Shown here one piece after another: positions 27,203 through 51,126 of a DNA stretch of 51,270 bases. The translations under genes were made by a program, and so were the position numbers. The notes under the pieces were generated by a model. It had not been told where the DNA came from, made no database searches, and was given only the letters and a program-made list of their open reading frames with translations. Location: NCBI GenBank assembly GCA_021852265.1, contig JAJZNV010000006.1, forward strand, positions 1 through 51,270. The letters run 5' to 3'. Each line of letters opens with the position of its first letter. The stretch's first letter is position 1. The stretch comes from Nanobdellota archaeon. Its GTDB lineage: Archaea; Nanobdellota; Nanobdellia; Parvarchaeales; Parvarchaeaceae.

Positions 27203-27294
27203 ACCTGTTGAATTGAAATCAGAAATGCCATTTAGAGCATAGCTTTATTTTAAATTCGACAGCTTAAATATTTACAGTAATTATTATAAATTTG

Positions 27295-29187
27295 ATGGCG
27301 ATGTCCACACTTACGAAAAACAGAAATAAAGTTAGGTCATTTTATGAATGGACATTTGGCGTTATAAGCGTATATCCTTTACCTTCATTTGCATTCATAG
27401 GTCTTCTTTTTGGTGTACTATTCTTTTTCTTCATAAACGGAGAATTCGCGGATATAATCTGGTTCTTGACGCTTATAATAGGAGGTATTCCAATAGTTTT
27501 TCAAACTTTAAAAAAGATGCTGGCGGGCAAATTTGCTTCGGACATAGTTGCGATGCTGGCCATAATAGTATCAATAATACTGCATCAGTCATTTGCTGGA
27601 GCAATAATAGTACTTATGCAATCTAGCGGGGAAGGAATTGAGAGATACGGATTTAGAAGAGCTTCCTCTTCTATAGAGGCTCTTTTGGCAAGGGCACCTA
27701 AGCTAGCTAGAAAAAAGGTAGGTTCACACCTAGAAAATATAGATGCAACGCGAGTAGTTGTAGGAGATATTCTAATTGTGGCCCGTGGCGATCTTATACC
27801 GGTAGATGGTACGATAATATCTGGAGAATCATATGTTGATGAGTCTGCGTTGACAGGTGAGCCTATACCAATTAAAAAAAGAACTGGCGATACCGTGATG
27901 AGCGGGAGCGTGAATGTATCGGACACATTTGAGATAAGGACCGATAGAATAAGTAAAGAAAGTGCTTATGCACGTATTGTCGAACTCGTAAAGGATGCAC
28001 AAAAACACAAACCACCCGTACAGAGACTAGCAGACCAGTATGCTGTCTGGTTTACTCCGCTTACATTGGCTATGGGTGCGTTTGGTTTTTTTGTTACGTT
28101 TAAGGTGTCGACAATACTTGCTGTCTTAGTGGTTGCTACACCTTGTCCATTAATAATAGCGGTGCCGATAGCAGTGTTATCCGCAATAAATAAGGCATCT
28201 AGGGATGGCATAGTTGTCAAGAGTGGCGCAGCAATGGAACAGATAAGCGGTGTCAAAGCAGTCTTCTTTGATAAAACAGGAACAATAACATTCGGTGCTC
28301 CTGTAATGGAGGATATTTTATCCATCGGAGTATATAGCAAGAGAGATCTTCTATACAAGAGCGGCTGCCTTGAACAGCTTTCATCTCATCCTCTAGCAAT
28401 AGAAGTGACTAAACGCGCGAAGGCTGAGTTCAAAAGACTTGAAGTCCCGAAAAAATTCAGAGAGACCCCTTCCTTTGGAGTCGAAGGGTATCTCGGAGGA
28501 AAGCGTATAGTGATTGGTTCGAGAAAACTTTATGAGCGCGAGGCATCTCAGAAGCTAGCTCAAAAATATATCAACCTTGTAGATAAAGCGAATGCGAACG
28601 GGAAACTCTGCTCATTCATAACAATTAATGGCAAATTAGAGGGGATAATAGTATTAACCGATCAGATAAGACCCGGTGTGCAGACCACTGTCCAGAAATT
28701 TAAAGACATAGGCGTAAACGAAGTTATAATGCTTACGGGGGATAACCAGACAAATGCAAGAGTTATAGCGGATCAGGCAGGTATCTCCCATTTTGAAGCA
28801 GGTCTGATGCCAAATGATAAAGTAAAGTTCATAAAAACGGCGACAGAAAAAGAGGGAGCTACCGCAATGGTAGGCGACGGAATAAACGATGCGCCAGCCT
28901 TGGCAACGGCAACGGTTGGTATAGCAATGGGTGCACATGGTACTGGAATAACTGCTGAGGCAGCAGATATGGTCTTATTGGTTGATGACATAACAAAGGT
29001 CGCCGATGTAATTACGATAGGTAAACGCATGCTTCAAATCGCCAAGCAAAGCATCTACATAGGTGTAGGGATGAGTATAGTTCTTATGGTGATTGCGAGC
29101 TTCGGCGTTATACCTCCTCCAATCGGGGCTGTTGTACAGGAAGGCCTAGACATAACAGTTATACTTAATGCGCTAAGAGTCAGGTAG
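27295..29187 (+). CDS. P1B-type heavy-metal translocating ATPase with TPC motif
   Basis: Metal-exporting or importing P-type ATPase of about 630 residues. Catalytic signatures are SGESYVDESALTGEPIPI (actuator TGE), FFDKTGTITFG (phosphorylated Asp), LSSHPLA (the P1B His-Pro motif), MLTGDNQTNA and MVGDGINDAPALA. The transmembrane metal site reads VATPCPLIIA, a TPC rather than the CPC of copper pumps, and the last helices contain QEGLD. There is no N-terminal CXXC metal-binding domain. TPC-type pumps have been linked to metals other than copper, so I do not assign a metal. A boxA at 27263-27272 fits the start near 27295. Confidence 0.92.
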   Translation: MAMSTLTKNRNKVRSFYEWTFGVISVYPLPSFAFIGLLFGVLFFFFINGEFADIIWFLTLIIGGIPIVFQTLKKMLAGKFASDIVAMLAIIVSIILHQSFAGAIIVLMQSSGEGIERYGFRRASSSIEALLARAPKLARKKVGSHLENIDATRVVVGDILIVARGDLIPVDGTIISGESYVDESALTGEPIPIKKRTGDTVMSGSVNVSDTFEIRTDRISKESAYARIVELVKDAQKHKPPVQRLADQYAVWFTPLTLAMGAFGFFVTFKVSTILAVLVVATPCPLIIAVPIAVLSAINKASRDGIVVKSGAAMEQISGVKAVFFDKTGTITFGAPVMEDILSIGVYSKRDLLYKSGCLEQLSSHPLAIEVTKRAKAEFKRLEVPKKFRETPSFGVEGYLGGKRIVIGSRKLYEREASQKLAQKYINLVDKANANGKLCSFITINGKLEGIIVLTDQIRPGVQTTVQKFKDIGVNEVIMLTGDNQTNARVIADQAGISHFEAGLMPNDKVKFIKTATEKEGATAMVGDGINDAPALATATVGIAMGAHGTGITAEAADMVLLVDDITKVADVITIGKRMLQIAKQSIYIGVGMSIVLMVIASFGVIPPPIGAVVQEGLDITVILNALRVR

Positions 29188-47776: not shown

Positions 47777-48436
47777 ATGAATAAATTTATTTTATTGCAG
47801 CCGGAAAAAGCGAAGGCGGCTATCAAGATCCTGGAGGATACCTATCCAAATCAAAAATATTATCTTGATTTTTCAACGCCCCTGGAGCTGCTTGTGGCAG
47901 CTATTCTGTCAGCACAGACGCGTGATGTTGTCGTTAATTCAATAACACCCGCACTTTTCAATGATTATAAGACTGCAAAGGATTACGCCGGTGCCGGTGA
48001 ATCCGATTTGCTGAAGTATATCTCCAAAGTCACATTCGCAGGTAATAAAGTCAAAAATATAATAAAAGCTTGTTCTATGATAGAGGATGATTATGACGGT
48101 AAGGTACCAAACAGCATCGAATCTTTAGTTAAACTTCCCGGTGTTGGCAGAAAAACTGCCAATACTGTTCTGATAAACGCTTATGGGATAGTCGAAGGAA
48201 TCCCGGTGGATACGTGGGTAATAAAGCTAGCTAGCAGGATAGGTCTAAGCAAGAGCCAAAAACCAGACGAAATAGAGCGGGACCTTATGGGTCTAGTAGC
48301 TAAGCCGTATTGGAAAACGATTGCATACGTACTGAAAGCCCACGGCCACAAAATATGCCATTCTGCGCGCCCTCTCTGTAGCATCTGCGTGCTTAATAAA
48401 CTATGCCCAAAAAATGGTGTCTCAAAATCACTGTAG
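47777..48436 (+). CDS. nth: Endonuclease III (DNA glycosylase/AP lyase)
   Basis: 219-residue repair enzyme that removes oxidised pyrimidines. The helix-hairpin-helix LVKLPGVGRKTANTVL holds the catalytic Lys126; the catalytic Asp145 is in PVDTWVIKLAS; and the C-terminal iron-sulphur cluster ligands are four Cys with C-x6-C-x2-C-x5-C spacing. In the usual VDTHV motif the His is replaced by Trp147, an uncommon change next to the catalytic Asp. All other features are standard. Confidence 0.93.
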   Translation: MNKFILLQPEKAKAAIKILEDTYPNQKYYLDFSTPLELLVAAILSAQTRDVVVNSITPALFNDYKTAKDYAGAGESDLLKYISKVTFAGNKVKNIIKACSMIEDDYDGKVPNSIESLVKLPGVGRKTANTVLINAYGIVEGIPVDTWVIKLASRIGLSKSQKPDEIERDLMGLVAKPYWKTIAYVLKAHGHKICHSARPLCSICVLNKLCPKNGVSKSL

Positions 48437-48499: not shown

Positions 48500-48811
48500 T
48501 TATTGCAGGTTTACCAGCAAGTCTTCCCCTTCTACTTTGACTTCAAAGGTCTTGAGAGGTGTTTTTGCAGGGCCCTCAACAACACTTCCTGTTTTAATAT
48601 CGAATTTTGAACCATGCCAAGGACATGTAATGATATTGTCACTAAGCTTACCATTTGAAAGCGGACCGCCGACATGCGTGCATTTCTCATCTGTCGCATA
48701 GAACTTGCCCCCGAAACGAGATATCAAAATTGTCTTTCCAGAGATCTGAAAACTCTTCATTTGCTTATCTTTAATATCCGATACTTTTCCAACCTTTACA
48801 AAATTTGCCAT
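48500..48811 (-). CDS. Rieske-type [2Fe-2S] ferredoxin
   Basis: 103-residue electron carrier. The cluster ligands are Cys44-x-His46 and Cys63-x2-His66 (KCTHVGG and TCPWHGSKFD), the spacing of soluble Rieske ferredoxins such as those of ring-hydroxylating oxygenases. No membrane anchor is present, so it is not the bc1-type Rieske protein. Its partner reductase or oxygenase is not in the window. A TAAATTTAAAG boxA at 48831-48841 fits a leaderless start. Confidence 0.92.
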   Translation of the reverse strand: MANFVKVGKVSDIKDKQMKSFQISGKTILISRFGGKFYATDEKCTHVGGPLSNGKLSDNIITCPWHGSKFDIKTGSVVEGPAKTPLKTFEVKVEGEDLLVNLQ

Positions 48812-49940: not shown

Positions 49941-50258
49941 ATGCTCCTAGCCAGATTTAAGGTGGCTGAGAGAAGCATGGAACCTTCCCTTAGTGCAGGG
50001 GATTTTGTCATAGTCAGCGGCCTGCCATATCTCTTTAAGGAGCCCAAAAAAGGCGATATCATTGTTGCACTCGTAGACGACAGGTACCTAATTAAACGAA
50101 TAAAAAAGACCGTTGGTGGCCGTTATTTTATTATGGGTGACAACAAAAAATACAGTGTTGACAGCAGAAGTTTCGGACCGGTATCACGCAAACAGCTCGT
50201 CGGAAAGGTCATAAAATGTATAAAAAAGGCACAGAAGGTAGTTCGAGAGAGAAGATAA
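49941..50258 (+). CDS. sodX: S26-family peptidase, probable nickel-SOD maturation protease
   Basis: 105-residue serine peptidase. The nucleophile Ser12 lies in ERSMEPSLSAGD and the general-base Lys52 in YLIKRI; the late GDNKKYSVDSRSFGPV box is the conserved end of signal-peptidase-type S26 enzymes. It has no transmembrane segment. The short form without an anchor, and a nickel SOD gene 350 bases away, match the SodX proteases that remove the SodN propeptide to expose the nickel-binding His. It follows the NUDIX gene by four bases. Confidence 0.85.
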   Translation: MLLARFKVAERSMEPSLSAGDFVIVSGLPYLFKEPKKGDIIVALVDDRYLIKRIKKTVGGRYFIMGDNKKYSVDSRSFGPVSRKQLVGKVIKCIKKAQKVVRERR

Positions 50259-50291: not shown

Positions 50292-50387
50292 TTAACTATG
50301 GGCTGCTAACCAATTGTTTCTCAAAACGAAGGCTAGCAACACGACCAGATAAGCTATTACCGCTCCCGCGATAATTGTTGTGTCCAT
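50292..50387 (-). CDS. 31-residue single-helix membrane microprotein
   Basis: Below the length cut-off of most gene finders. From the ATG at 50387, the frame encodes Met-Asp-Thr-Thr, then a hydrophobic helix of about 19 residues (IIAGAVIAYLVVLLAFVL), then Arg-Asn-Asn-Trp and a short polar end, stopping at TAA. A GGAGG ribosome site lies six to seven bases upstream of the ATG, unusual in a region of leaderless genes, and a TTTATATT-like boxA at 50427-50438 gives a short leader. The helix resembles the first helix of sodium:solute symporters, so it may be a remnant of one rather than a new microprotein. Confidence 0.5.
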   Translation of the reverse strand: MDTTIIAGAVIAYLVVLLAFVLRNNWLAAHS

Positions 50388-50426
50388 ATTCCTCCTCCAT
50401 CATAGTATTATATAGGACGAACTTGA

Positions 50427-50607: not shown

Positions 50608-51126
50608 TTAAGCTTTTGGCACCACTGTATCATGTTCTGTTGGGTATGGTGCTTTAACGTGCGAAGTCTCTATTCCTTTCGTTTTCCAGAATATTTCCGC
50701 AAATTTATTGACGTTCTCTAAGAGTTCTTCTGCAGATTTAATATCTGTATCCTGTTTGGACTTTGATCCCGCCTTCATTATTTTCCAGACAATATCATGC
50801 AGCTCCGGAAACTTCTGTAAATGATCTGGCTTAAAATAGTCGCCCCAAATTATCCTGATCTCATGTTTGCACAGTTCGGCGTGCTTTTCCTTTACATCCG
50901 TATATCTTGCCATCTTATGGTGATAATCATTTTTATCTTCTGGTTTCATACTTTCTGAAGGGACCTTCAACTGGCTTATAAGCATATCCATACGAATCAC
51001 GGTATGAGCCGACAACTGCGCAAGATGTGGATCGTATATGCCGCAAGGTATATCACAATGAGCATAAACTATCTTTGCAGGAAATATTTTATCCAAAATT
51101 TGGAAAACTGACTTTAAAACTAACAT
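50608..51126 (-). CDS. sodN: Nickel-containing superoxide dismutase
   Basis: Dismutates superoxide to oxygen and peroxide at a nickel centre. After a 22-residue propeptide, the mature N-terminus reads HCDIPCGIYDP, the nickel hook: His23 becomes residue 1, with Cys24 and Cys28 as thiolate ligands and Tyr31 guarding the site. The rest follows known NiSODs, with AELCKHEIRIIWGDYFKP and HDIVWKIMKA helices and an FWKTKG end. It has 172 residues. The boxA ATTTATAAAT at 51147-51156 predicts a leaderless start at 51126. The SodX-like protease gene lies on the other strand 350 bases away. Confidence 0.93.
   Translation of the reverse strand: MLVLKSVFQILDKIFPAKIVYAHCDIPCGIYDPHLAQLSAHTVIRMDMLISQLKVPSESMKPEDKNDYHHKMARYTDVKEKHAELCKHEIRIIWGDYFKPDHLQKFPELHDIVWKIMKAGSKSKQDTDIKSAEELLENVNKFAEIFWKTKGIETSHVKAPYPTEHDTVVPKA

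Follow-up and report, generated by a model that had tools for sequence, protein, structure and literature searches.

Within the window, the 51,270-nucleotide stretch of DNA analyzed here, a minus-strand open reading frame (ORF) at 50292–50387 runs from an ATG at 50387 through 31 codons to a TAA stop at 50292–50294 and specifies the 31-residue membrane microprotein MDTTIIAGAVIAYLVVLLAFVLRNNWLAAHS. On one side lies a gene for a sodX-like S26 signal peptidase (49941–50258, plus strand), which is convergent with the microgene and outside it, and on the other lies sodN, encoding a nickel superoxide dismutase (SOD; 50608–51126, minus strand). The endonuclease III gene, nth, is at 47777–48436 on the plus strand. 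A small Rieske ferredoxin gene (48500–48811, minus strand) is found near nth, and a gene of this kind recurs near the microgene in four related genomes (G004, G012, G014, and G021).

The start codon, GGAGG, boxA, and stop that a sequence-only reading of this DNA had described could all be located. A Shine-Dalgarno (SD)-like site, GGAGGAGG, occupies 50390–50397 (minus strand), just 5′ of the ATG. Upstream of this is a boxA/TATA element, TTTATATT, read from 50433 to 50426 on the minus strand and followed by CAAGTT; from its position, this element would set the transcript start ∼16–20 nt before the ATG. The same reading held that this initiation region is better formed than those of most genes here, and this is right because SD-like sites are rare: with start codons assigned mechanically, only 3 of the 42 start sites inspected in the window have one, and most of the others look leaderless. 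Many window genes have a TATA-like box ∼20–40 nt upstream of the start codon but lack an SD. ORFs of the length of the microgene are frequent by chance in the window; mononucleotide-shuffled windows are expected to hold 0.025 ATG-initiated ORFs of 25–50 codons with both GGAGG and a hydrophobic helix, by a criterion chosen after the ORF had been seen, and this ORF is the sole such case. The combination of TATA and AAGTT as a shared promoter class is not enriched in the window relative to shuffles. The microgene is a clear example of an SD-led gene within a mostly leaderless stretch of genome.

A homologue search of 55 related genomes finds the microgene, intact, in every one of the 28 genomes of one genus and nothing in the remaining 27. 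The carriers, whose genomes span 400–900 kb, are most likely Candidatus Parvarchaeum, acid-mine DPANN archaea, the genus name being our own assignment. When a profile was run against 280 genomes of the class, matches within the genus have E values of 1e-11 to 1e-18, and everything below them is noise, with a next best match of 6.6e-4. Two further loci in the class showed an RNN motif on reading and were rejected as chance matches. All copies are 29–33 codons long, begin with ATG, and end in a stop codon. The sequence-only reading had proposed looking for an excess of synonymous over non-synonymous change, and such an excess is seen: pN/pS is about 0.20 across nine disjoint pairs (Fisher p of about 1e-22). 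By parsimony, codon positions 1, 2, and 3 account for 81, 43, and 144 changes, respectively (chi-square p = 2e-13). Frame-disrupting changes in relatives, which that reading had named as refuting, are absent: none of the 27 distinct coding sequences contains an in-frame stop, and each of the five other frames is stopped in 14–27 of the 27. In a 12-genome clade, conservation is high over the promoter and coding sequence and drops 3′ of the stop; the aligned AAAAGTATTT of the boxA element is invariant throughout this clade. Among the relatives more widely, the promoter box is conserved and a G-rich SD site is present in nearly all. Judged by sequence comparison, the ORF at 50292–50387 is a real protein-coding gene because it is conserved in 27 other genomes, which we regard as decisive.

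The microgene is nearly always present as a single copy in each of the 28 genomes. One genome, G027, has two copies, one of which has the same protein sequence and the same surroundings as the G023 copy. This copy is on an 11-kb contig (G027:C30, locus L038) with the same gene layout as G023:C7 (L035) and an identical microprotein, and is probably a binning duplicate of G023, whether shared or contaminant.

The most prominent feature of the microprotein is a predicted transmembrane (TM) helix comprising residues 4–22 (50322–50378, minus strand; Kyte-Doolittle hydropathy of 2.79). Hydropathy indicates a single TM helix at about these residues in all family members, and AlphaFold2 returns a single helix from residue 3 to 30 with a mean pLDDT of 94.9, a model that says nothing on partners. 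The helix is followed at the membrane edge by the motif R23-N24-N25-x-L27-A28 (50304–50321, minus strand), which is invariant in the alignment, as are M1 and Y13; G8 is nearly invariant. Outside the conserved positions, helix residues vary among hydrophobic types. The C-terminal tail carries a charge of +1 to +2 and the N terminus a charge of 0 to −1, so that by the positive-inside rule an N-out/C-in topology is likely. With one TM helix and a conserved frame of <50 codons, the product belongs to the general kind of single-pass membrane microproteins, in agreement with the initial description of the ORF.

Within this known kind, the microprotein is a new family restricted to the genus. When 23 members were queried, nothing in Pfam exceeded noise. 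The same was true of NCBIfam, where one member scores the CcoM model at noise level (E = 0.037). The PDB yielded no match by sequence and none by fold, for which a lone helix is uninformative, and no match to the microprotein was found in viral contigs. A structured RNA in place of a protein was rejected on the grounds of no Rfam match, a fold z score of −1.0, and a codon-shaped pattern of constraint. No Rosetta-stone fusion was found; a 330-amino-acid frame in G024 was matched only at E values of 0.06–0.2, which is noise.

Across the genus, the most frequent neighbor of the microgene is nth, in most cases co-directional and some 130 bp upstream, and dcd (dCTP deaminase) is often convergent on the downstream side. 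In one genome of a sister genus (G029), the nth gene is 66% identical but has other neighbors and no microgene beside it. SodX and SodN adjoin the microgene in five genomes (G000, which is the window genome, along with G004, G012, G015, and G024), and in G019 only sodX does so, with sodN on another contig. G022 and the second G027 copy have very different neighbors and retain the microgene. That the neighbors change while the microgene persists suggests that it is an autonomous unit. SOD type varies within the genus: besides the genomes with nickel SOD, several others have a gene for an Fe/Mn-type SOD, named by eye from its sequence, within a few kb of the nth-microgene locus.

This distribution bears on two roles suggested by the layout in the window. 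The microprotein had been proposed as a regulator of the SOD locus, but the nickel SOD is found in only 9 of the 28 genomes that carry the microgene (a tally in which G027 is counted, although its bin may overlap with that of G023) and the two genes adjoin in just the five listed above; the SodX/SodN locus, adjacent in the window, is unlinked to the microgene in most of the genus. The short ORF and strong SD site would also suit a regulatory leader peptide or upstream ORF acting on the gene that follows it, the SOD locus included. However, the next downstream gene is convergent in most genomes, which argues that the microprotein is no leader peptide; where downstream genes are co-directional their identity varies (Rieske ferredoxin, exonuclease III, P-type ATPase, or CysRS), and SodN is undetected in 19 of the 28 genomes. 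We consider such a role very improbable. The other origin suggested earlier, a fossil of a sodium:solute symporter (SSF) N terminus, has next to nothing to recommend it. Any first TM helix looks generally similar, and no tool result favors this origin. SSF genes (PF00474) were found in none of 19 genomes of the genus and none of 12 others of the class, so the intact symporter in relatives that had been named as counting against a microprotein is likewise missing from all 31. None of the 23 members queried matches SSF in Pfam, contrary to the proposed likeness of the helix to symporter N termini, and the copies are intact frames with their own ATG under purifying selection.

On balance, we think that the microprotein probably serves a larger housekeeping membrane protein, either as a tiny structural subunit of it or as its modulator. 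In this model, the microgene would be driven by its own promoter, short leader, and SD site, and its presumed translation product would insert with its N terminus outside and the R-N-N-x-L-A tail at the cytoplasmic face. The helix face bearing small residues and Tyr13 would then pack, together with the RNN tail, against the larger protein. Conservation is tightest at the cytoplasmic edge (RNNxLA) and at a single Tyr within the membrane, which would suit a subunit or modulator held against a larger protein and is in line with other membrane microproteins whose function has been studied. No fusion and no constant operon mate of the microgene was found, and candidate complexes either differ from it in distribution or occur too widely to be informative.

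The main rival is a self-assembling membrane peptide (an oligomeric pore, or an envelope or curvature factor), with no larger partner and possibly connected with life at low pH. The small-residue face of the helix (G8, A/L12, and A19) and the lone conserved Tyr13 would suit self-association, and the gene is confined to one genus of an acid-adapted order (PMC10134863). We nonetheless find this unlikely, since strictest retention of the RNNxLA tail at the cytosolic edge suggests specific docking rather than the lining of a pore, and sister genera of the same acid-tolerant order seem to be without the microgene. Less likely again is a dedicated small subunit of one energy complex: cytochrome bd (CydX-like), a P-type H+ ATPase (KdpF/PMP1-like), complex I, or the A-type ATPase. 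Size and topology fit, a P-type ATPase gene is directly downstream on the same strand in G023, and the respiratory chain of Parvarchaeum is fuller than those of its sister genera (PMC10134863). Against this, and allowing that in incomplete MAGs single absences are weak evidence and some terminal-oxidase absences uncertain, CydA was found in 9 of 19 genomes of the genus, haem-copper oxidase (COX1) was not found in the genus genomes searched, and the P-type ATPase was not found in four carriers, G004 (98% complete), G011, G012, and G024. Complex I NuoH was not found in the carrier G022 (98% complete), and non-carrier sister genera do have it. The A-type ATPase alone comes close to being universal: its subunit I occurs in nearly all carriers, yet it is also present in two sister genomes. 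No dedicated partner emerges among the complexes tested.

Type I toxin-antitoxin pairs include small single-helix membrane toxins such as TisB and Hok, and the microprotein resembles these in size and in having a single hydrophobic helix; DinQ (PMC3567139) and TimP (PMC7667032) are further examples. That the microprotein is a membrane-active toxin of this type is improbable: the gene is universal in the genus, nearly always single copy, mostly at an ancestral locus next to nth, and under purifying selection, with no conserved antisense frame and, as above, no Rfam match and an unremarkable RNA fold.

Established small membrane proteins resemble the proposed subunit or modulator to differing degrees. 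KdpF and sarcolipin-type regulators share its length of about 30 residues, its one TM helix, and action in the membrane on a larger partner. The microprotein differs from them in having no Pfam match, in that several carriers have no detected P-type ATPase, and in lying beside a P-type ATPase only in G023 and the G027 duplicate; a KdpF-like subunit is disfavored for want of a family-model match and because the pump was not found in several carriers. The window itself has a P-type ATPase frame (27292–29187, plus strand) of 631 amino acids, compared with about 806 for the form most often seen in the genus; the window frame is truncated, frameshifted, or of a different subtype. CydX/CcoM-type oxidase subunits are alike in size and in their one helix, but in this genus cytochrome bd is patchy and haem-copper oxidase was not found; a subunit of this type is disfavored in that a terminal oxidase was not found in every carrier. 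Archaeal Sec61beta and SecE are likewise small, single-helix proteins and are universal, but they are longer and have other motifs. Both are separately encoded in these genomes, so the microprotein is not the sole copy of either. The SecE matches (G000:C13:46004–46120 and those of relatives) lie in open frames of about 145–200 codons, longer than in most other genomes of the class, which could reflect an N-terminal extension or merely an open upstream frame. Further parallels are archaeal: in Methanosarcina mazei, the small proteins MtrR (PMC13370731) and sP36 (PMC10714827), which bind and act on membrane complexes, are products of overlooked small ORFs, like the microprotein in its proposed role. 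They have 49 and 61 amino acids, respectively, and any relation to them is one of kind only.

A bolder proposal, which we hold tentatively and think rather doubtful, is that the microprotein is essential and genus defining: it would have originated de novo within the Parvarchaeum lineage and, in the course of the move into acid, turned into a small subunit that some universal membrane machine (e.g., the A-type ATPase or the translocon) cannot do without. Annotation can easily overlook short genes, of which the nanosized DPANN archaea have many. Supported by 28 genomes, without a Pfam or NCBIfam family, and with an invariant motif, the microprotein could readily be sought in acid-mine biofilms by small-protein mass spectrometry, and it offers a way to ask how minimal cells come to fix a new membrane protein.
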